Shown piece by piece: positions 5,230 through 52,789 of a stretch of 64,000 nt of DNA (positions within the stretch are counted from its first letter, which is position 1; every line of letters starts with the position of its first letter). The position numbers and the translations under genes are program-made. This DNA is from Candidatus Peregrinibacteria bacterium (lineage in GTDB: Bacteria; Patescibacteriota; Gracilibacteria; UBA1369; 2-02-FULL-48-14). The notes below the pieces were generated by a model that was not told where the DNA came from, searched no databases, and saw nothing but the letters and a program-made list of their open reading frames with translations. Location: NCBI GenBank assembly GCA_018658105.1, contig JABHVW010000004.1, positions 62,001 through 126,000 on the forward strand, given 5' to 3'.

Positions 5230-6198
5230 TCATTCTCCCACTTCCACCTCCGGTGCTTCTTCTAGCAACGGTGCTTCTTGTCCATATGTCATGTAAGCAT
5301 AAGTTGCACCTACTCCAATTGATCCAGTAATCACTCCAGCAGGAATCATTGAAGCAAGTAATGCGAGAAATGCCAATCTAAATTTATCTCTAGAAGATTT
5401 TAAAGCTCCACATTCAACCTCTTTATTTTCTATCGTAGACTTAGCCTCATCTAATTCACCATTCATTTTTGATACAGCTTCAACAGTAGCAGCTCTTAAC
5501 TCTTCAACTAAAGACACAAGGTCTTCAAGAGACCACCTTTCTAAGGTAGCATTAACTCCTCTTCTAGAATATGAGTTACGTATATCAGATGTAAAACCAG
5601 CTTCAAATCCTAGATTAATTGCAGCAATCAAAGCTGTTCTTACTCTTTTAACTGTCTCCACAAGCCCACCAGCATTCTTTCTCAAATCATCATGTTGCAT
5701 CAATGCTTTCATACAATGTGGCATAGAAAATTCATTCAAAAATTCTGTAAGCCATTTATCAAAAACAATATTAAATTCTGCATTTGCACTATTCAAATCC
5801 GCAATAATTTCCTCTTCTTTTTCAACAAACCACACAGAAGGCTTAACTCTATATTTATTCTCAATTTCTTCTTCTGAACTTCTCTCCCTACCACGTAGAG
5901 CATACATATGCATTACAAGACCAGCTTCAGTAAGCTCATCAATAAAAGCATCATGATCAACTTCACCATCATTCTGCAATGAACTCAACAATTCATCAGT
6001 AATATGAATTGGATCATATCCTCTCATTCCTGGACAAGACCTAGTGATTCTATTCAAAAGTACTCTCCCCTCATTATCAGGATGTTTTTTATCCCCCATA
6101 GATGCACCCAAAGCTACAAAGAACCCAGAACGACCTCGATAAGAATCAATCATATCCTCATAGAGATCCTTATCAATAGGTTTACCCCTTTCATCCAT
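5230..6198 (-). CDS. Hypothetical protein with C-terminal membrane anchor (paralogue of 4203-5168)
   Basis: A 322-aa protein of unknown function with the same architecture as its downstream neighbour: soluble N-terminal two thirds, a coiled coil around residues 225-260, a SSRDKFRLAFLALLASMIP membrane segment near residues 265-290 with a second hydrophobic glycine-rich stretch, and an acidic C-terminal tail. Two adjacent, same-length, same-strand genes each with its own TTGACA promoter suggest an old tandem duplication. No signal peptide. No catalytic motif was recognised, so no function is offered. Confidence 0.7.
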   Translation of the reverse strand: MDERGKPIDKDLYEDMIDSYRGRSGFFVALGASMGDKKHPDNEGRVLLNRITRSCPGMRGYDPIHITDELLSSLQNDGEVDHDAFIDELTEAGLVMHMYALRGRERSSEEEIENKYRVKPSVWFVEKEEEIIADLNSANAEFNIVFDKWLTEFLNEFSMPHCMKALMQHDDLRKNAGGLVETVKRVRTALIAAINLGFEAGFTSDIRNSYSRRGVNATLERWSLEDLVSLVEELRAATVEAVSKMNGELDEAKSTIENKEVECGALKSSRDKFRLAFLALLASMIPAGVITGSIGVGATYAYMTYGQEAPLLEEAPEVEVGE

Positions 6199-6223
6199 AC
6201 AAAATAATTAATATTTAGACACA

Positions 6224-6251
6224 ACTATACTAAAAGTTCACGCTTTGTCAA
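6224..6251 (-). promoter_or_regulatory. Sigma70-type promoter for the 5230-6198 gene
   Basis: On the minus strand TTGACA (6251-6246) and TATAGT (6229-6224) are separated by 16 nt. The predicted transcript start is about 20 nt upstream of the ATG at 6198, the same geometry as the promoter of the paralogue. Confidence 0.65.
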
Positions 6252-6269
6252 CGTCACAACAGGTATAAA

Positions 6270-44874: not shown

Positions 44875-44920
44875 TGGAGCCGTCACCGGGATTTGAACCC
44901 GGGACCCCCAGCTTACCATG
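44875..44920 (-). pseudogene. tRNA-Thr(GGU), detached 3' half
   Basis: Minus strand: anticodon loop ATGGTAA (44919-44913), 3' anticodon stem GCTGG (44912-44908), variable loop, T arm CCGGG/CCCGG, acceptor TGACGGC (44885-44879), discriminator and CCA (44877-44875). Upstream of the loop the sequence is unrelated. It fits the 5' half at 52524-52561: anticodon stem CCAGC/GCTGG pairs 5 of 5 and the acceptor pairs 7 of 7 with one G-U. Confidence 0.88.
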
Positions 44921-44935
44921 AATAGCATGTACTCC
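44912..44935. other. Left attachment site of the element (core plus arm)
   Basis: Core CTTACCATG (44912-44920) is a direct repeat of 52524-52532 and contains exactly the 7-nt anticodon loop with one base each side. The inner arm ATGTACTCC (44927-44935) is the inverted complement of GGAGTACAT at 52514-52522. Joined in a circle the ends give arm-core-inverted arm, a typical tyrosine-recombinase crossover site. Confidence 0.8.
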
Positions 44936-45058
44936 ACGCAGCACTCTTTTGGCTAGTCTATGCGGCATAGCGGTAGATTGGCTCGTGGTTTCAATGTGCA
45001 ATTGGACGGGTACATCCGTGAGTAGTTTAGCATAGGTTTCCTGACCCTGAATATTGAC

Positions 45059-45086
45059 TTGTCTTACGCCCCACAATGGCTATACT
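45059..45086 (+). promoter_or_regulatory. Promoter at the left end of the element
   Basis: TTGTCT (45059-45064), 16-nt spacer, TATACT (45081-45086), 23 nt before the ATG at 45110. It overlaps any earlier start of the following frame, which fixes that gene's start. From 44806 to here there is no other gene besides the tRNA half and att sequences. Confidence 0.5.
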
Positions 45087-45109
45087 GTCAACCATTTAAC
45101 CAACTCAAA

Positions 45110-46294
45110 ATGCCTAACAATGGAGACCCAGTTCCAGGTGAACTAGAACAAGGTGCACTCGTAGAAACAGCACCAACTCATGCTGAGGGTGTAGCTGTAA
45201 CAAACGAAAGAGATGTAACAACTTCAACACTAGAGATCACGACTCAAACAAGATTTGCTGATTCTGCTGGATTCACTGCAGAAGCCGCAGGAGAGCTATT
45301 CCAATCTAGCTTGGTTATAATAAAAGCAAATTTAGATGACATAGAAGCTGGTCTTGGTGAACAACTAGATCCCTTTTTAGACAACCCAGAAAAAGAATCT
45401 ACAGTAATGCGCAGCTTACTAGAAAAGGCTGAAGCAGCTGGAAACCACGAGTTAAAAGTTGCATTGTTCAATGTCTATCGAGTTTCTGTCTCTTACGGAA
45501 GAGGAGCAGCATATGGAGCAAACCCTAAGGGGCCAAGCTCAGACGTGAACAAGTTCTTCAACGATAAACTGGAAATCCCTGAAACTGGCCTTATTGTTGT
45601 GGACTTCTTCTTCATTCGAAACTTTGCACAAATTGTTGAACGTCTAACTGCACTTGGAACGAGAGATGGCACAAACTACCTAAGTAGATTGCGAATCCGT
45701 GTGCCAAACTTCGTTCTTGCAAATCACCTTGCTGGCCTAGACCGCACATCTGATAATGCTAAAGCTTTCGCTGCAGCCTGTGAACTAATCGGCGAAGACC
45801 AAGTAATTGTAGGCGAAGGAATAACACACACTGGAGATATTGCACTTGGCGAAGGAGAGGAAATGGCAATCCGTTTCGCTCCACGGGCAGATGCAATTAT
45901 TGCAGATTTCGCTTCGGACACAGAAGGATTAGATGATCAATTTGCAGCTTCAGAAAGAGCTTTTGTCACCAGACTTCAAAAAACATTTACCGACCTAACA
46001 GTTGGGGGAATAGCAATGGTCAACGTTGCTGTGGCAAAAGATGACCATGCACCTCTTGCAATCATGCCAGACAAACTAAGCTTAAACCCTGGTGTGAGAA
46101 AATCTCAACTACAGGCACTAGTTACAGAAGCTTGTCTATCATTTAGTGGCACCGTTTCAATACAGCCAGAACCCGGTGGTGAATTTGTTAACCCTGGGTC
46201 TTCTATTGCACCAGAAGTTACTGACATTGAAAATCCTTTGGAAGGACAAAACTTCAATGCAACAACTTACTTTGTTGTTAGGAGGGATTCATAG
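45110..46294 (+). CDS. Hypothetical protein, first cargo gene
   Basis: A 394-aa acidic soluble protein. The start at 45110 (MPNNGDPVPG) is chosen over 45059 because of the promoter. A segment around residues 245-310 (ADAIIADFASDTEGL to DLTVGGIAMVNVA) has the strand-helix spacing of the late part of a Rossmann-fold methyltransferase, but no SAM-binding glycine motif was found, so this is weak. Unknown function. Confidence 0.5.
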   Translation: MPNNGDPVPGELEQGALVETAPTHAEGVAVTNERDVTTSTLEITTQTRFADSAGFTAEAAGELFQSSLVIIKANLDDIEAGLGEQLDPFLDNPEKESTVMRSLLEKAEAAGNHELKVALFNVYRVSVSYGRGAAYGANPKGPSSDVNKFFNDKLEIPETGLIVVDFFFIRNFAQIVERLTALGTRDGTNYLSRLRIRVPNFVLANHLAGLDRTSDNAKAFAAACELIGEDQVIVGEGITHTGDIALGEGEEMAIRFAPRADAIIADFASDTEGLDDQFAASERAFVTRLQKTFTDLTVGGIAMVNVAVAKDDHAPLAIMPDKLSLNPGVRKSQLQALVTEACLSFSGTVSIQPEPGGEFVNPGSSIAPEVTDIENPLEGQNFNATTYFVVRRDS

Positions 46295-46421
46295 AGGTCA
46301 TAGCCTGACATTCCACGCCAGTGTACTTCACATTCCAGGCCAGGGGGTGCCTGACGTAGTTTTGCCATATATAGAAAAAAGAGCAAGAATAAGCTAAAAT
46401 ACAACAAAAACACCTCCTCAT

Positions 46422-47894
46422 ATGTACATATACTTCACTGATTATTTCAAAATCTCTCCAGAGGCTCTTGATAAATACGGAGCTTTCAACATTTCATTGG
46501 TTTCTGACCTACCCTTGTTCATTGATCCGTTTCTTTTATTCAACAGTAAAAAAGATGAATACCAAACTCTACATGAAGAAATCATCAATTATTTGAAGTT
46601 TCTGAAAAAGAAATCTACTACTATGGAGATAGATAAAGGCGCATTAAAAGCATGGTATTCATTTAAAGAGGTAAAACAAAACTGGTTTGGCTTTTCTATT
46701 GGAGGAAATAGTGGGAGCGGTCTAGGCCCAGGTTTTGCAAAAGCATTAAACGAAAATTTATCCAAAATCTTTAAAGGGTTTGGCGAAGAAGAGATAACCA
46801 AAGGAAGTCATCTTGAAAAGCTTTGCTTAATTAGAGAGGGAGTTGGCAAAGACAGCATCAGTGATTTTGCAACAAACCTAATAAAAGGTTTTTTGCTAGA
46901 ATATACAGAAGAGTTCACAAAGAAAAATGTCCCCGAAGAGTTAACCGATGAATTTCGTGTCCAGAAAGCAAAATTCAATTATCAAACTGAATCATGGGAG
47001 GAGGGCAAATTCGTTCTACCTAAACATCAAAACGACTTTGTACTGCTCACTCCAAAAGATTTACTCACAAAAGACGACACATGGATTAACAAGACCGACT
47101 TAATAAATGATTTTGATCGTATTCCCGACTCTGTACCCGATGAACAGCTTAGGTTCCAGATCAACAATTACTTCGAAAGTCAGCTTGCGAATGAACCCGA
47201 TGAAGAACCAACCAAAGAGGAAACAAAAAAAGCAGCTTACTCCACACTTCAAGAGTTTCCTGAATTGATTGATTTCTTTATTAAATACAAAGAGGCAAAT
47301 GGAGCACGTGCAGAAAACCTCAGTAGTCAAAAGGTCAAATTCTCACAAGAAGTTTACATTGAGAATGTAAGAAATTTTGTAAATAAACTACAAAGAACAG
47401 AGTTTTATGAGCTACCAGAAGAAAACAGCTTCATAGAGGCAAAAAAGAAAATCCGCGCATTAAAAAAATTCATTGAAAGCAATGATGGATATAGATTGTT
47501 CTATGACAACACTGGTAAAGCAGTAAAGAAGGAAAGTGACTTACAATTATTATTTCAATTAGCATGTCATGATTCAATTTTTGACATTAATCGTGAACCA
47601 AATAACGGAAGAGGTCCAGTAGATTTCACATTTTCTTTTGGGAAAAAAGATAAAACCCTTGTTGAATTTAAACTTGCCTCAAATACACAATTAAAACGAA
47701 ACCTACTAAAGCAGGTCGAAATTTATCAAGAAGCAAATGACACCGAGATGGCATTCAAAGTAATCATATTTTTCTCAGAAAAAGAACACGCAAGAGTCAA
47801 AAGAATTCTCATGGAAGCAGAACTAATGGAAAAACAAAATATTATATTGATAGACGGTAGAAACGACAATAAACCTTCAGCATCGAAGGCGTAA
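46422..47894 (+). CDS. PD-(D/E)XK nuclease-like protein, candidate defence gene
   Basis: A 490-aa protein. The N-terminal domain begins YFTDYFKISPEALDKYGAFNISLVSDLPLFIDPFLLFNS. The C-terminal domain carries GPVDFTFSFGKKDKTLVEFKLASN near residue 410, reading as the D...(V)E-x-K core of a PD-(D/E)XK nuclease, then LKQVEIYQEANDTEMAFKVIIFFSEKE. The family end DNKPSASKA is complete. Such proteins are scattered in genomic islands; a restriction or anti-phage role is plausible but not shown. No methylase or partner is adjacent. Nuclease-fold confidence is moderate; the defence role is inference. Confidence 0.65.
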   Translation: MYIYFTDYFKISPEALDKYGAFNISLVSDLPLFIDPFLLFNSKKDEYQTLHEEIINYLKFLKKKSTTMEIDKGALKAWYSFKEVKQNWFGFSIGGNSGSGLGPGFAKALNENLSKIFKGFGEEEITKGSHLEKLCLIREGVGKDSISDFATNLIKGFLLEYTEEFTKKNVPEELTDEFRVQKAKFNYQTESWEEGKFVLPKHQNDFVLLTPKDLLTKDDTWINKTDLINDFDRIPDSVPDEQLRFQINNYFESQLANEPDEEPTKEETKKAAYSTLQEFPELIDFFIKYKEANGARAENLSSQKVKFSQEVYIENVRNFVNKLQRTEFYELPEENSFIEAKKKIRALKKFIESNDGYRLFYDNTGKAVKKESDLQLLFQLACHDSIFDINREPNNGRGPVDFTFSFGKKDKTLVEFKLASNTQLKRNLLKQVEIYQEANDTEMAFKVIIFFSEKEHARVKRILMEAELMEKQNIILIDGRNDNKPSASKA

Positions 47895-48079
47895 TTATTC
47901 CACATTCAACGTCCTAAAAAAGCACAAGTTAGGCAATGATTTTCTGTCTTTATTTTTTGCAGAAAAAATATTTAACAGATTACTTGTAATACAAAAAGGC
48001 ACTACTGAAGAGATTACAAATATAAAATCAAACAAGCACAACCTTGATCAAACTCTTAAATAAGAGTAAATTCCAGCCG
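47895..48079 (+). other. Intergenic stretch, possible gene remnant
   Basis: A/T-rich. One frame stays open for about 50 codons until the stop at 48061-48063 (NVLKKHKLGNDFLSLFFAEKIFNRLL...) but has no ATG, GTG or TTG in a useful place before its core, so it may be the debris of a gene. No promoter or terminator was convincing. Confidence 0.3.
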
Positions 48080-48207
48080 TACCCTACAAATCTTATCTCG
48101 CAAGGAATCTTGCTCGTCGTATCTCAATAGTGAGTAACGATGGGCGGGTTCGGGCCACTATTGAGCGCCCTTGCGGCAGGAGATTTGTGGGGTACACCGA
48201 CCCGTCC
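48080..48207 (+). ncRNA. Candidate structured RNA with nested stems and loop-tail pairing
   Basis: Three nested stems: 14 bp (48080-48093 with 48181-48194, one G-U), 7 bp CGCAAGG/CCTTGCG (48099-48105 with 48169-48175) and 10 bp CTCAATAGTG/CACTATTGAG (48123-48132 with 48156-48165). The 23-nt apical loop holds GGGCGGGTTCGG (48142-48153), complementary to the tail CCGACCCGTCC (48197-48207) over 11 bp with one bulge, and the tail is followed by five T (48208-48212). So the loop could form a pseudoknot, or the loop-tail pair could act as a terminator that excludes the nested stems. No known RNA class recognised. Possible alternatives are a DNA-level origin or recombination structure. Confidence 0.55.
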
Positions 48208-48230
48208 TTTTTGCTATTAACCCCACAAGC

Positions 48231-48698
48231 ATGGCAACCACACAAAACCAAACACCAATTTATAAACGTTGGTACTTCATTGCACTCATCTGCGCAATTG
48301 TCTTCGTAGCCCTTCTCCCAAATTGCACCAGCAATCTAGAAGAAGCCGCATATGACCACCCTATGGTCTTAGATATAGCCTCACTCATCAACACCTCACC
48401 TGAGAACTTTGAATCAGTCCTAGGCGAAGGAAAACATGATTTCTTTGAAAGTGCTGGAGACATCAGCTGGAACACCGACACCTATTACATCGATGCTCAC
48501 TTCGAGAACAATCAGTCCAGTGAGCTTTTCTTCAATTATATAAAAGCTGGGGCAAGTGAAGAGGAGGTCCTCGCAGCAGGAAATCTTGAGAATAAAGCAT
48601 CCAACTATCGCATCGAAATTCAACCATGGCTCGACCCTTCAAGTGCAGGAGCAAATGGTGAAGCTCAAATTGCGGGTGTTCATGTCTATGCAAAGTAG
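48231..48698 (+). CDS. Hypothetical membrane-anchored protein, cargo gene
   Basis: A 155-aa protein with one N-terminal hydrophobic segment (YFIALICAIVFVALLPNC), either a membrane anchor or a poor lipobox at Cys34, and an acidic extracytoplasmic domain ending GEAQIAGVHVYAK. The frame is open to 48171, but that part falls in the structured RNA region, so the ATG at 48231 is used. Its 20-nt leader directly follows the RNA candidate, which may control it. Confidence 0.55.
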   Translation: MATTQNQTPIYKRWYFIALICAIVFVALLPNCTSNLEEAAYDHPMVLDIASLINTSPENFESVLGEGKHDFFESAGDISWNTDTYYIDAHFENNQSSELFFNYIKAGASEEEVLAAGNLENKASNYRIEIQPWLDPSSAGANGEAQIAGVHVYAK

Positions 48699-48861
48699 TT
48701 CCTTCTAACCCTCAGACAATAAGGCTCCAAAACCTCACAAAACCTGACACTCAGCTTTCCATAGAAAACTTCCAAAATAAATCAAATCTAACCTGAATTG
48801 TTAAGAAATGCTAAGGTTCAACATCCCATAGTAAAAACAAAAATGTTATGGTGCAGGATGT

Positions 48862-49560
48862 ATGACTTCAAACGAACCAGATCAAAGCTACAACAAAATA
48901 CTTGCCTACTTTCGTAGCATCATCAAAACAGAAACATTTGAGAGAAAAGTAGAAGCAATTCGAAAAGAATGTGAGGTGCCTCCCTTTGGATTCATCCCAG
49001 AAGTCCATGGGACAAACCCACCCGAAAGGAAAAAGCATGAAAAAAAACTTTTCAAAAAAGCAGCTACATTAGCTGGCGAGTACGGGTTGAAACTTCCATT
49101 CTGGGAAGATGTAATAATTCAATACATATTATTTTCAGAAATTGACCTATCAATGACCGAAAACTACAGCCTAGTTCATTTAAGAGACATTCCTAATAGT
49201 AAAGAGGGGGCAAAATACAACTCTGTGTGGAGAGAATATAATAATTATGAAGATGAGTTCTACCCAATTTGCCTCATGATTAGCCCATATGCCTCAAGGA
49301 GAGATATTGAAGACTTTATAAAGAAAAACTTCAGTAAGCAAATCAAGCCTGCACTCAAAGAACATCGCAAACCAGGTATAGACATAGGCAAAAAACGGAT
49401 CGGAATGGAGTATGTAAGAGCAAGAAATGAATTTATCTACAACCATAAAAATTTACCTCTTAAAGAAATTGGTGAGCTCGTGAAAAAAGAGTTTGGAGAG
49501 GAACTTGATGATGGCTACATAGGAAAAATTATCTCTATGGAAAAGAAAGCCAGAAAATAA
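48862..49560 (+). CDS. Hypothetical protein with possible C-terminal helix-turn-helix
   Basis: A 232-aa basic soluble protein. The C-terminal LPLKEIGELVKKEFGEELDDGYIGKIISMEKK has the look of a helix-turn-helix with a recognition-helix-like end, and the KRIGMEYVRARNEFIYNHK stretch precedes it. Might be an element regulator or recombination directionality factor; evidence is weak. It is the gene before the first tyrosine recombinase. 163 nt upstream hold no gene. Confidence 0.5.
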   Translation: MTSNEPDQSYNKILAYFRSIIKTETFERKVEAIRKECEVPPFGFIPEVHGTNPPERKKHEKKLFKKAATLAGEYGLKLPFWEDVIIQYILFSEIDLSMTENYSLVHLRDIPNSKEGAKYNSVWREYNNYEDEFYPICLMISPYASRRDIEDFIKKNFSKQIKPALKEHRKPGIDIGKKRIGMEYVRARNEFIYNHKNLPLKEIGELVKKEFGEELDDGYIGKIISMEKKARK

Positions 49561-49641
49561 GTGTACTACATTTAATACTTAGATTGCTTTTTTAGTGAGG
49601 ACTAGATTTTCCGTATGCTTATAAACTAACCACATCCAAGC

Positions 49642-50622
49642 ATGAACACATTCGCCCCACTACGCATCCTTTTAACCTTAACTGAAGAAGAAGAATTCGA
49701 AGAACTCATCAATCCTGAACACACACCTCTTTGGGAATGTTGGCCAAACTACATAAGAAGGCAAGAAGTCTTCCAGCATTCACTCTCAACAACCAGAAGT
49801 GTAAGAGACACACTGAGAATGCTAATGCGTCACTGTGGAATCTACTCAGTTGAAGACTACAATGACCCAGAAGTCATACAAGATGCTCTTCTAGAGCTAA
49901 AAGGCAATCGAGGATTTGGAGAAACCACATACAACTCATATCTAAAAAACATCAAAAGTTACCTTATCTTTCTAAGACGAAACGGGATCATCAAAGAAGT
50001 CCACCTAGATAGAGTAGAAAAATTCAAGAACATCATTCATGAACAGCATACCCAAACGGAAGAAGAGGTCATTCAGGTCCTCGCACAGCTCCTCAATAGA
50101 CGACAAACAACACTAGAACGACTTCGAAACATATTCTTCTACAAATTACTGATACTCACGGGTGCCCGCCCATCTGAACTTGAACGATTAAAAAAAGAAA
50201 ATATCATCAAACAAGGGGAAAAATGGACCATCAAAATAAGGGGTGGGAAAAACAAGCCAAGCAACCGCTTCTACTACCTTCCCTCTGGAGTAAAAGATGC
50301 CCTCATCCCATACATGCTCTACAGAAAGCAGCTAGCCAGAAATGAAGACTGGCTTTTCGCCTCTCAATCAAAGCGAACAGGCTGGACATCAAAAGGAATG
50401 CGACACTTGCTCAAGAAGCTCTCGAAAGAACTTGGCTTCACTGTTGGACTTTATTCCACCCGACGATACGTAGCAACAAAACTCGCATTAGCAGGAGCCA
50501 CTGATAGTGAAATAGGCAACCACTTAGGCCACACACGTCTATCAACAACAAAGCGCTACATAAAACAGTGTGGCGCACTTACGAAAAAGAATGTGGACAA
50601 ATTGAGTGAGCTATTAAACTAA
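49642..50622 (+). CDS. Tyrosine recombinase (phage-integrase family), variant active site
   Basis: A 326-aa tyrosine recombinase. The N-terminal SAM-like core-binding domain spans about 45-135. The catalytic domain has R in LTGARPSELERL, K in RGGKNKP, YSTRRYVATKLA where HxxR is usual (His replaced by Tyr, Arg kept), H in LGHTRLSTTKRY and the nucleophile Tyr. Active-site set R-K-Y-R-H-Y is tolerated in several recombinases. Lies inside the element, away from its ends, so it may be a second transposase/integrase or the relic of an earlier insertion. Confidence 0.88.
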   Translation: MNTFAPLRILLTLTEEEEFEELINPEHTPLWECWPNYIRRQEVFQHSLSTTRSVRDTLRMLMRHCGIYSVEDYNDPEVIQDALLELKGNRGFGETTYNSYLKNIKSYLIFLRRNGIIKEVHLDRVEKFKNIIHEQHTQTEEEVIQVLAQLLNRRQTTLERLRNIFFYKLLILTGARPSELERLKKENIIKQGEKWTIKIRGGKNKPSNRFYYLPSGVKDALIPYMLYRKQLARNEDWLFASQSKRTGWTSKGMRHLLKKLSKELGFTVGLYSTRRYVATKLALAGATDSEIGNHLGHTRLSTTKRYIKQCGALTKKNVDKLSELLN

Positions 50623-50689
50623 TTATAGAGAGCAAACATTGATAGAGTGACTAAAGAAAGCTAATCTCAAGACACAACTACAAAATATT

Positions 50690-51370
50690 ATGTCCATGTC
50701 ATCATTAGAAAGGGAACTCAATGAACAAGTAGATAGACAACTGAGAAAAGATAAGCCCATCTTAATTGAGAGATTCATCAAAAGATTAGTCGAAACAGGG
50801 TACCCACCAGAGCATCTACAGCTCGAATGGCAAAATTCAAATGACCACTTTGACTTAGCTGTGATCGAACCAGAATCAAATCAATTAATAGCTGCATTTG
50901 ATTTCACTACACCAGCAGTTTCAACACAAGTGATTTCAACTTCAACTGAAGCTAGAGAGCGAATCAAAAAATGCTCTGAATTAAAAGGGAAGAAAAACAT
51001 ACCAATCTACAAAATTTCCCTTAGCAGAGAAAATTCAAAGTTTTATCAATTTGTCATTAACATCGCCTCACCCGAAGAGGGTCACTTCGTTCCAATAAGT
51101 ACAGTTCCACCATTCCACAAATTAAACAAAAAAATCTTAGGCGGAAAAATTCATAAAGAGCGTGACTCCTTAAAAAGGATCACGGCATTACTGCTCTTTC
51201 TCACTATAGAGATTCTTATACTAAACTTGTTTGAACTAATGGAAATTTCAATTGAAACAATAACAATACTTGGAATAATTATTGGTTTATGCCTTCTCCC
51301 TCATGCCGAAAGCCTAAAATTTTTGAATCTGCAATTTACGAGCAAGAAAGACACAAAGAAGAAAACCTAA
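50690..51370 (+). CDS. Membrane-anchored nuclease-like protein
   Basis: A 226-aa protein. The N-terminal domain has a possible PD-(D/E)XK pattern: LQLEWQNSNDHFDLAVIEPESNQLIAAFDFTTP (D near residue 55, then F-D-F instead of E-x-K), so catalytic residues are only partly supported. The C-terminal part has two membrane helices (about 165-185 and 190-210) and a lysine-rich tail. Membrane-tethered effector proteins of this layout occur in phage defence, but the assignment is speculative. Its end overlaps the integrase end by 4 nt. Confidence 0.45.
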   Translation: MSMSSLERELNEQVDRQLRKDKPILIERFIKRLVETGYPPEHLQLEWQNSNDHFDLAVIEPESNQLIAAFDFTTPAVSTQVISTSTEARERIKKCSELKGKKNIPIYKISLSRENSKFYQFVINIASPEEGHFVPISTVPPFHKLNKKILGGKIHKERDSLKRITALLLFLTIEILILNLFELMEISIETITILGIIIGLCLLPHAESLKFLNLQFTSKKDTKKKT

Positions 51371-52269
51371 TTCAAACAATGCATCTCCGCAGCCTTCCCC
51401 ATCTGTTGCACCGAGCAAGTCAGATAGATAGTCGTCGTTGTGATCTTTGCATGTCCCATCATTTTTGAGAGCGTATAAATGTCTACTCCGCCTTCAAGCA
51501 TCAACCTGGCGAAAGCGTGTCGCAAAGTATGAGAAGAGAAATTCAGCTTTGTAGTCTTTCGTAATTTGAACATTAAATTGTTAATACAGCGTGGACCGAT
51601 TGGTAGATCTTTCTGAACCGCAGTAAAGAAATAGATACATTGTTTCTTCAAACGCTTCCTATCCTTCAAATACTCTTCAAGAATTGAAGCTAAGCGAGTA
51701 TTGATTGGAATGACCCTATCCTTCCCTCCTTTCCCTTGTTCAATGAAGAGAGACCTATTTTCAAGATCAACATGAGCCATCTTTAATTGGAAAACTTCCT
51801 TCCGTCTCAATCCAGCAAGCAACATAATCCCAACAATGCCTCTATTTCGGTATTTCTCGAAGGTATAAGTGTATTTCATGTGATAAGCGGCATCTAAGAC
51901 TAGAACCGCTTCAGACTGCGTTAGGGTCTTAGGAATGCGGGTTTCCATCTTGGGCTTTTCCATCTTTTCAACTGGGTTAACTTCCAAAACGCCCTCTTTC
52001 ACCATCCAAACGCAAACCTGATTAAAATGCTTTAGATAAGACCTAAAGGTTGAGGAACTCCATTTACGCTCAAGCTTCCCTTTGAAAAACCAAGATTCAA
52101 AAAGCTCTCTCGAAAGCTCATCTGGATACTCTACCTTTGTTTCTCTCAGAAACAGTTTCCACTTATCCTTGTAACCTTGAATAGTATAAGGCGAATAATT
52201 ACGAATCACTTCGCAATACTGAAGATACCGAAACAAAAGATGCTGAATTGTTTGTGTGCTGGCTTCCAT
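51367..52269 (-). CDS. XerC/D-like tyrosine recombinase, element integrase
   Basis: A 300-aa tyrosine recombinase with full catalytic set: R in LAGLRRKEVFQL, K in GKGGKDRVIP, HxLRH in SSHTLRHAFARLML, H in MMGHAKITTTTIY with the nucleophile Tyr. N-terminal core-binding domain about residues 8-95. It lies 58 nt from the intact tRNA-Thr and 254 nt from the right attachment core, the standard place for an integrase that acts at that site. Reads away from the tRNA. Confidence 0.93.
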   Translation of the reverse strand: MEASTQTIQHLLFRYLQYCEVIRNYSPYTIQGYKDKWKLFLRETKVEYPDELSRELFESWFFKGKLERKWSSSTFRSYLKHFNQVCVWMVKEGVLEVNPVEKMEKPKMETRIPKTLTQSEAVLVLDAAYHMKYTYTFEKYRNRGIVGIMLLAGLRRKEVFQLKMAHVDLENRSLFIEQGKGGKDRVIPINTRLASILEEYLKDRKRLKKQCIYFFTAVQKDLPIGPRCINNLMFKLRKTTKLNFSSHTLRHAFARLMLEGGVDIYTLSKMMGHAKITTTTIYLTCSVQQMGKAAEMHCLN

Positions 52270-52327
52270 AATTTTTTGGATTAGGAAATAAAAAGCCAGA
52301 TGTAACCTGTTAATCTACACATTAAAA

Positions 52328-52402
52328 TGGAGCCGTCACGGGGGATTGAACCCCGGACCTCGCCCTTACCATGGGCGCGCTCTACCACTGAGCTATGACG
52401 GC
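52328..52402 (-). tRNA. tRNA-Thr, anticodon GGU, carried by the element
   Basis: Minus strand: acceptor GCCGTCA/TGACGGC, D arm GAGC/GCTC, anticodon stem CGCCC/GGGCG, loop ATGGTAA with GGT, T arm CGGGG/CCCCG, CCA encoded (52330-52328). The anticodon region matches E. coli tRNA-Thr(GGU). It lies between the integrase and the right attachment core, so inside the element, and contains a third copy of the core CTTACCATG (52365-52373). Confidence 0.95.
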
Positions 52403-52523
52403 TTACTGATGAATTGTGGAGCCCGGAGACACATCCTCGAGGGCAGGTGTTCTGGACTATGTGTATAACTCCTCTTTGTGTGTTATACTAGCCGATAACT
52501 CATTTTGGCTGGAGGAGTACATC
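52403..52523. other. Right inner end of the element
   Basis: No gene. Contains an inverted repeat TATAAC (12-nt gap) GTTATA in the stretch 52462-52490, which could be a promoter region for the intact tRNA or recombinase arm sites, and ends in the attP arm GGAGTACAT (52514-52522). Confidence 0.4.
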
Positions 52524-52532
52524 CTTACCATG
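52514..52532. other. Right attachment site of the element (arm plus core)
   Basis: GGAGTACAT arm at 52514-52522 and core CTTACCATG at 52524-52532. The arm is the inverted complement of 44927-44935. Bases to the right of the core belong to the host tRNA half. Confidence 0.8.
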
Positions 52533-52561: not shown

Positions 52562-52626
52562 TTATGCGCAAGAAGCGCCCAGCAATCTAATCAAATATAA
52601 GAAAGAAGGTAAAGCCCTTCAGAGAT

Positions 52627-52765
52627 ATTTGTGTGTGTAAAAAGGCGCAAGGAGCGAAGTTTAGTTTTCTAAACGAGCGACGAAGTAAGGCATTCTAATC
52701 TGTATTTGTGTGTGTAAAAAGGCGCAAGAAGCGAAGTTTAGCCTTCTAAACGAGCAACGAAGTAA
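52627..52765. repeat. Two 62-bp imperfect direct repeats
   Basis: 52627-52688 and 52704-52765 differ at four positions. Each contains a GTTTAG-nnnn-CTAAAC hairpin. Each begins ATTTGTGTGTGTAAA, which can pair with TTTACACGCACAAAT at 52770-52784 (14 of 15, one G-U), so two mutually exclusive long stems are possible. A third short match (GCGCAAGAAGCG) lies at 52566-52577. Confidence 0.75.
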
Positions 52766-52789
52766 CACATTTACACGCACAAATACAAA

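Follow-up and report, generated by a model that had tools for sequence, protein, structure and literature searches.

A small integrating element of a CPR-type bacterium carries a locus that, to judge from sequence comparison, encodes a conserved structured RNA, of which two copies are known. The RNA is ~134 nt long and occupies positions 48079-48212 on the + strand of the stretch of DNA that we analysed (64 kb; hereafter the window). It folds into a long nested hairpin whose apical loop pairs with the 3' tail, and the same fold recurs, with all four of its helices rebuilt from other letters, in a related element of another genus. We favour the reading in which the RNA is a leader that decides whether polymerase enters the gene behind it; the evidence for the fold, for its conservation and for this and other functions is set out below.

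The fold and its conservation

Three nested stems make up the body of the RNA. The outermost, P1 (48079-48094 paired with 48180-48195), has 16 bp, two of them G-U. P2 (48099-48105 with 48169-48175) has 7 bp, and P3 (48123-48132 with 48156-48165) has 10 bp and is separated from P2 by a linker of 17 nt (48106-48122). P3 closes a G-rich apical loop of 23 nt (48133-48155) that contains GTAACGATGGGCG. A segment of this loop, GGGCGGGTTCGG (48142-48153), can form an 11-bp helix, interrupted by a single bulge, with the tail CCGACCCGTCC (48197-48207), which begins one A after the 3' end of P1. TTTTT (48208-48212) comes next, and pairing of the tail with the loop would give both a pseudoknot and a terminator-like end. 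The sequence-only reading from which this analysis started had named each of these parts (nested stems, G-rich loop, complementary tail, five T) and had described the loop-tail pairing and the T run as we find them; its sizes for P2 and P3 were also correct, whereas P1, to which it had given 14 bp, has 16 when the two G-U pairs are counted.

The fold is far stronger than its composition would give. The folding energy is -62.3 kcal/mol, compared with -41.3 +/- 3.9 kcal/mol for dinucleotide shuffles (z -5.35; reached by 0 of 200), and after correction for G+C it is the strongest + strand fold within the 64-kb window (z -4.9). For the loop-tail helix (-21.5 kcal/mol), an equally strong pairing arose in 10 of 5000 trials in which both strands were shuffled, and in 2 of 3200 17-mers taken from elsewhere in the window.

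Because there were no close DNA relatives in the collections searched, related elements were sought through their proteins. The second of two integrases in the element (49642-50622) has a relative in a genome (G228) from another genus and another family of the same order, and a fold scan of the 12.6-kb stretch around that relative (L089) gave one outstanding intergenic stretch. When read on the + strand of L089, this stretch (L089:10996-11130) has the same plan as the window RNA. Its P1 is GCGATCCA(AA)ATCTAC / GTAGATTGGATCGC, its P2 is AAGGGTA / TACCCTT extended by CCC/GGG, and its P3, preceded by a linker that is again 17 nt long, is CCGAACTGG / CCAGTTTGG. The loop, TGTAAAGGTGGGCGTAGAGG, contains GTAAAGGTGGGCG as the counterpart of the window motif, and its GGGCGTAGAG is complementary at 10 of 10 bases to the tail CTCTACGCCC, which follows P1 after one A and is itself followed by TCTTTT. 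The resulting loop-tail helix has an energy of -18.4 kcal/mol, a value that 1 of 5000 shuffles reaches.

A covariance model (R1) built from the window sequence alone found this homologue in L089 (12.6 kb, filters off) with 32.3 bits (E 4.6e-8), the next best score being 6.5 bits; since the model contains nothing of L089, the match is an independent test. The two sequences were then set out in an alignment fitted by hand to the structure, with N padding, so that the following numbers describe one comparison: standard pairs occupy 83 of 84 scored cells (98.8%), and 21 of 44 pairs have changed on both sides (5 in P1, all 7 in P2, 5 in P3 and 4 in the pseudoknot). When the 3' partners were slid by 1-3 columns, 0-2 double changes were left, and shuffling gave a mean of 10.8 against the 21 observed. 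Given the slid controls and the independent match of R1, a chance origin of the shared fold is implausible. Nearly all letters differ in L089 and yet the fold is the same, and this shows that selection has kept the shape itself. Compensatory change in a homologue was the test that the sequence-only reading had proposed, and its account of an RNA with a pseudoknot and a terminator-like U tract is borne out by L089:10996-11130, where stems, pseudoknot and U tract are all kept.

The element and the search for further copies

The RNA lies within an element of ~7.6 kb (approximately 44911-52532) that is integrated in a tRNA-Thr(GGT) gene on the - strand and breaks it in the anticodon region, leaving a 5' half at 52564-52523 and a 3' half at 44920-44871 with the shared core CTTACCATG. 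An intact tRNA-Thr(GGT) gene (52402-52328, - strand) is found inside the element beside an integrase, as if replacing the broken one. That integrase is XerC-like (51367-52269, - strand) and 55% identical to the integrase of the L089 element; the second tyrosine recombinase, on the + strand, shares 41-45% identity with its relative there. The L089 element has an intact tRNA-Thr(GGT) gene and relatives of both integrases, and the att sequences are nearly identical (GGAGGGGTACATCCTTACCATG versus GGAGGAGTACATCCTTACCATG). The layout of its tRNA-Thr (6191-6265 and about 6040-6080) is the same as in the window. Just outside the window element are two tandem 69-nt copies (52626-52694 and 52703-52771), 91% identical and with internal complementarity (GAAGTTTAG...CTAAAC). 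The motif ACCCYACAAR, tried as an iteron, is not enriched in the element.

Upstream of the RNA, positions 46422-47894 encode a 490-aa protein with relatives of ~50% identity across many phyla and one of 72% identity on a contig from Buchananbacteria (L012). The protein, which is widely transferred and probably anti-phage, has a match to PDC-M36A, a candidate defence family. Linkage of the RNA to this defence-type gene is absent in 33 relatives. Downstream of a relative of the gene in a Gammaproteobacteria contig, the sequence (CCTAACAAACGCATGCAGCC...; L019:1555-1630) resembles an integron attC site, and because of this attC-like sequence the gene may also travel as an integron cassette.

Rfam 15 contains no family that the RNA matches at gathering score, in agreement with the sequence-only reading, which had recognised no known RNA family; the best weak matches were microRNA hairpin models, and the Rfam T-box model, by which a T-box leader would be recognised, was not matched. 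Comparison of the window RNA with plasmids and phages by blastn, and with 6 genomes of the family and 380 of the phylum, gave nothing convincing. The RNA is single-copy in its own genome (1.12 Mb in 15 contigs) and absent from the other genomes of the family. In some genomes of the same class, in-frame TGA codons occur inside a homologous gene, and these codons point to a CPR lineage of the Gracilibacteria/Peregrinibacteria type. Pattern matches in viral contigs were judged to be chance after reading and folding. A single-sequence covariance search of 288 class genomes returned no match, a result that is misleading because its strict filters lost the true L089 homologue. A model built from both sequences recovered the L089 copy and gave no third copy in 89 genomes of the order and 180 of the class, a partial coverage of the class with filters that had once missed the true homologue. 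One weak match (L010, in genome G470) was rejected, as it lies inside an open reading frame resembling guanylate kinase. A literature search gave nothing relevant on structured RNAs in these bacteria.

Alternative pairing, flanking signals and the downstream gene

A second hairpin competes with the upper part of the fold. This local hairpin (48112-48145, + strand) consists of 9 bp between 48112-48120 and 48137-48145 and 4 bp between 48123-48126 and 48131-48134. Part of the linker (48112-48120) is one of its strands, and it is incompatible with P3 and with the full pseudoknot. It belongs to the nested minimum-energy fold, in which P1 and P2 are retained and P3 is replaced. In the L089 homologue, 8 of its 9 lower pairs are possible in one register. 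The sequence-only reading had proposed two exclusive states, one of them formed by the loop-tail helix. As described, this does not hold, since that helix coexists with P1-P3 as a pseudoknot; an exclusive alternative does exist and is conserved, but it is the local hairpin, which had not been listed.

The window RNA has an energy of -62.5 kcal/mol with the local hairpin and of -54.1 with P3, to which the pseudoknot adds -18.7 before its entropy cost; the corresponding values for L089 are -56.7, -49.5 and -18.4. With the pseudoknot helix included, little energy separates the two states; the entropy cost assumed for it is our own estimate. The loop segment GTAANGRTGGGCG takes part in both alternative pairings and is among the best-conserved primary sequence: the loops of the window and L089 are identical at 12 of 20 positions, compared with 0 of 7 per strand for P2. 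In this comparison of two sequences, the conserved GTAANGRTGGGCG is suggestive of selection acting on both of the alternative pairings.

Both copies are preceded by a promoter-like site. In the window, TTGATC (48044-48049) and TAAATT (48067-48072), on the + strand and with a 17-nt spacer, agree with the consensus at 8 of 12 positions, a score of at least 8/12 being reached at this spacing by 0.46% of positions; the +7 position falls on G48079, with which P1 begins. L089 has TTGATT-N17-TAAAAT (9/12), and its +7 is likewise the first G of P1. The pattern common to the two, TTGATY-N17-TAAAWT, is a promoter by consensus only.

Behind the U run, a gene starts on the same strand after 18 nt in the window and 23 nt in L089, at promoter-to-ATG distances of 152 and 158 nt. 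The window gene (48231-48698, + strand) encodes a 155-aa protein with a hydrophobic, export-type N-terminal segment, for which no relatives were found. In L089, the gene encodes an SLH-SNase-Excalibur protein, also with a hydrophobic export-type N-terminus, and unrelated to the 155-aa orphan. A weak -10-like sequence lies between the U run and the ATG in both copies. Control of the gene at 48231 by the RNA seems plausible.

No canonical intrinsic terminator (a G+C-rich, short-looped local hairpin directly followed by a U tract) was detected at 48197-48212. Without such a hairpin, the one helix available as a terminator stem is the long-range pairing of loop and tail, and standard intrinsic terminators do not have a pseudoknot for a stem. 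Control at the level of translation by hiding of a Shine-Dalgarno (SD) sequence is unlikely and was dropped as an explanation, because an SD-like motif is absent before all 42 window ORFs that are 200 aa or longer. Of these 42 ORFs, 11 have a -10-like hexamer 10-28 nt upstream, compared with 12% at random positions, and the two observations together suggest that leaders are short or missing. In P1, the 3' strand (48180-48195) is also complementary over ~10 bp to 48220-48230, immediately ahead of the start codon at 48231 (42 of 5000 shuffles); this pairing is absent in L089 and was set aside.

Possible functions of the RNA

We give about an even chance to the reading in which the RNA is a leader acting by transcription attenuation, with polymerase stopping or running into the exported-protein gene according to which state forms; transcription, termination and the switch itself are what we infer. 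It is favoured because a same-strand gene of the export type follows shortly after the U run in both loci. In both copies a conserved structured region lies between a promoter-like site and that gene, and the fold is backed by compensatory change between the two sequences. Transcription would begin on the + strand at about 48079, and the local hairpin could form first. After polymerase has passed the tail and the 3' strands of all three stems, this hairpin could yield to P1-P2-P3 and the pseudoknot. With the three stems stacked straight, the loop would be out of reach of the tail, because a single A joins the tail to P1. The linker of 17 nt, present on one side only, would allow P3 to double back alongside P1-P2, and in this predicted arrangement P3 plus the pseudoknot (about 21 bp) would span P1 plus P2 (23 bp). 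Since the helix of the pseudoknot runs right up to the U tract, it could provide the stem for intrinsic termination. Polymerase would then either stop at the U tract and release the 134-nt RNA or read through into the exported-protein gene.

Such a leader would resemble the preQ1, ZTP and fluoride riboswitches, promoter-proximal leaders that end in transcription termination and have a pseudoknot near a U tract, competing folds and a gene directly downstream. It differs from them in having no Rfam match, and its two copies precede genes for unrelated export-type proteins that do not appear to be of one pathway. It would also differ in architecture, as the 5' strand of its terminator-like stem is the apical loop of a long hairpin, ~44 nt upstream of the tail.

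The same features can be read another way. The locus may be a stand-alone gene for a small RNA of ~134 nt, with a promoter of its own and a 3' end made up of the pseudoknot and U tract. The RNA would act in trans, for example by binding a protein involved in maintaining the element, in counter-defence or in excision control, and the downstream gene would be an independent unit. We regard this as a real but minority possibility. Fold, promoter-like site and U tract are common to both elements, whereas the genes that follow are not related to each other and the two RNAs point in opposite directions with respect to the second integrase, so that the RNA is not the leader of a common gene; taken with the weak -10-like sequence before each ATG, this makes the stand-alone RNA a close rival of the leader. 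The loss of sequence in P2 and P3 with retention of structure would suit an RNA that is bound by its shape. Against the stand-alone reading, a same-strand gene starts 18 or 23 nt downstream in both copies, and a protein partner is not evident. Pairing of the RNA with att sites or with the start regions of element genes was sought, and none is common to both elements. Other compact RNAs of mobile elements whose shape is more conserved than their sequence are generally known, such as the phi29 pRNA, retron RNAs and omega RNA, but our RNA matches nothing in Rfam, and the Pfam, NCBIfam and PHROG matches of the element's proteins include neither a reverse transcriptase nor TnpB/IscB nor a packaging ATPase.

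It is improbable that the locus works as folded single-stranded DNA, either as an attC-like site for one of the two tyrosine recombinases present in each element or as an origin or transfer structure, as the sequence-only reading had also considered. The DNA does fold well, on either strand, and integron attC sites likewise form long imperfect hairpins, occur with tyrosine recombinases and retain structure while their sequence drifts. The stem ends, though, lack the R boxes of attC sites (R'' RYYYAAC and R' GTTRRRY), being CCGTACC / GGTACACC in the window and CTCGCGATCC / GGATCGCACT in L089, and a conserved loop-tail pseudoknot with a U tract is foreign to attC. In the window, the two pairs of P1 that are not Watson-Crick are G-U when read on the + strand and hence A.C on the other, and the + strand RNA folds better than the - strand in both copies. 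There is no relaxase or Rep among the Pfam, NCBIfam and PHROG matches of the element, and a promoter-like site stands before the fold and a T run after it. On these grounds, we take the locus to be an RNA rather than a DNA transfer site. A functionless remnant, such as a degenerate inverted repeat or a MITE-like sequence, would agree with a single copy that is missing from the other genomes of the family, but is very improbable in view of the 21 compensatory pairs in a homologue from a different genus and of the lack of a second copy or a visible target duplication.

More speculative than the leader itself, and in our estimate rather unlikely, is the reading in which the two copies represent a new class of bistable RNA in the mobile elements of ultra-small bacteria. 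In such RNAs, an apical strand would first be hidden by a local hairpin, the pseudoknot between loop and 3' end would then serve as the terminator stem, and termination would read out complete folding on behalf of an exported-protein gene. The RNA is in no current family library, has strong two-sided covariation and is carried by a mobile element. If the pseudoknot itself is the terminator, the notion of an intrinsic terminator would widen.
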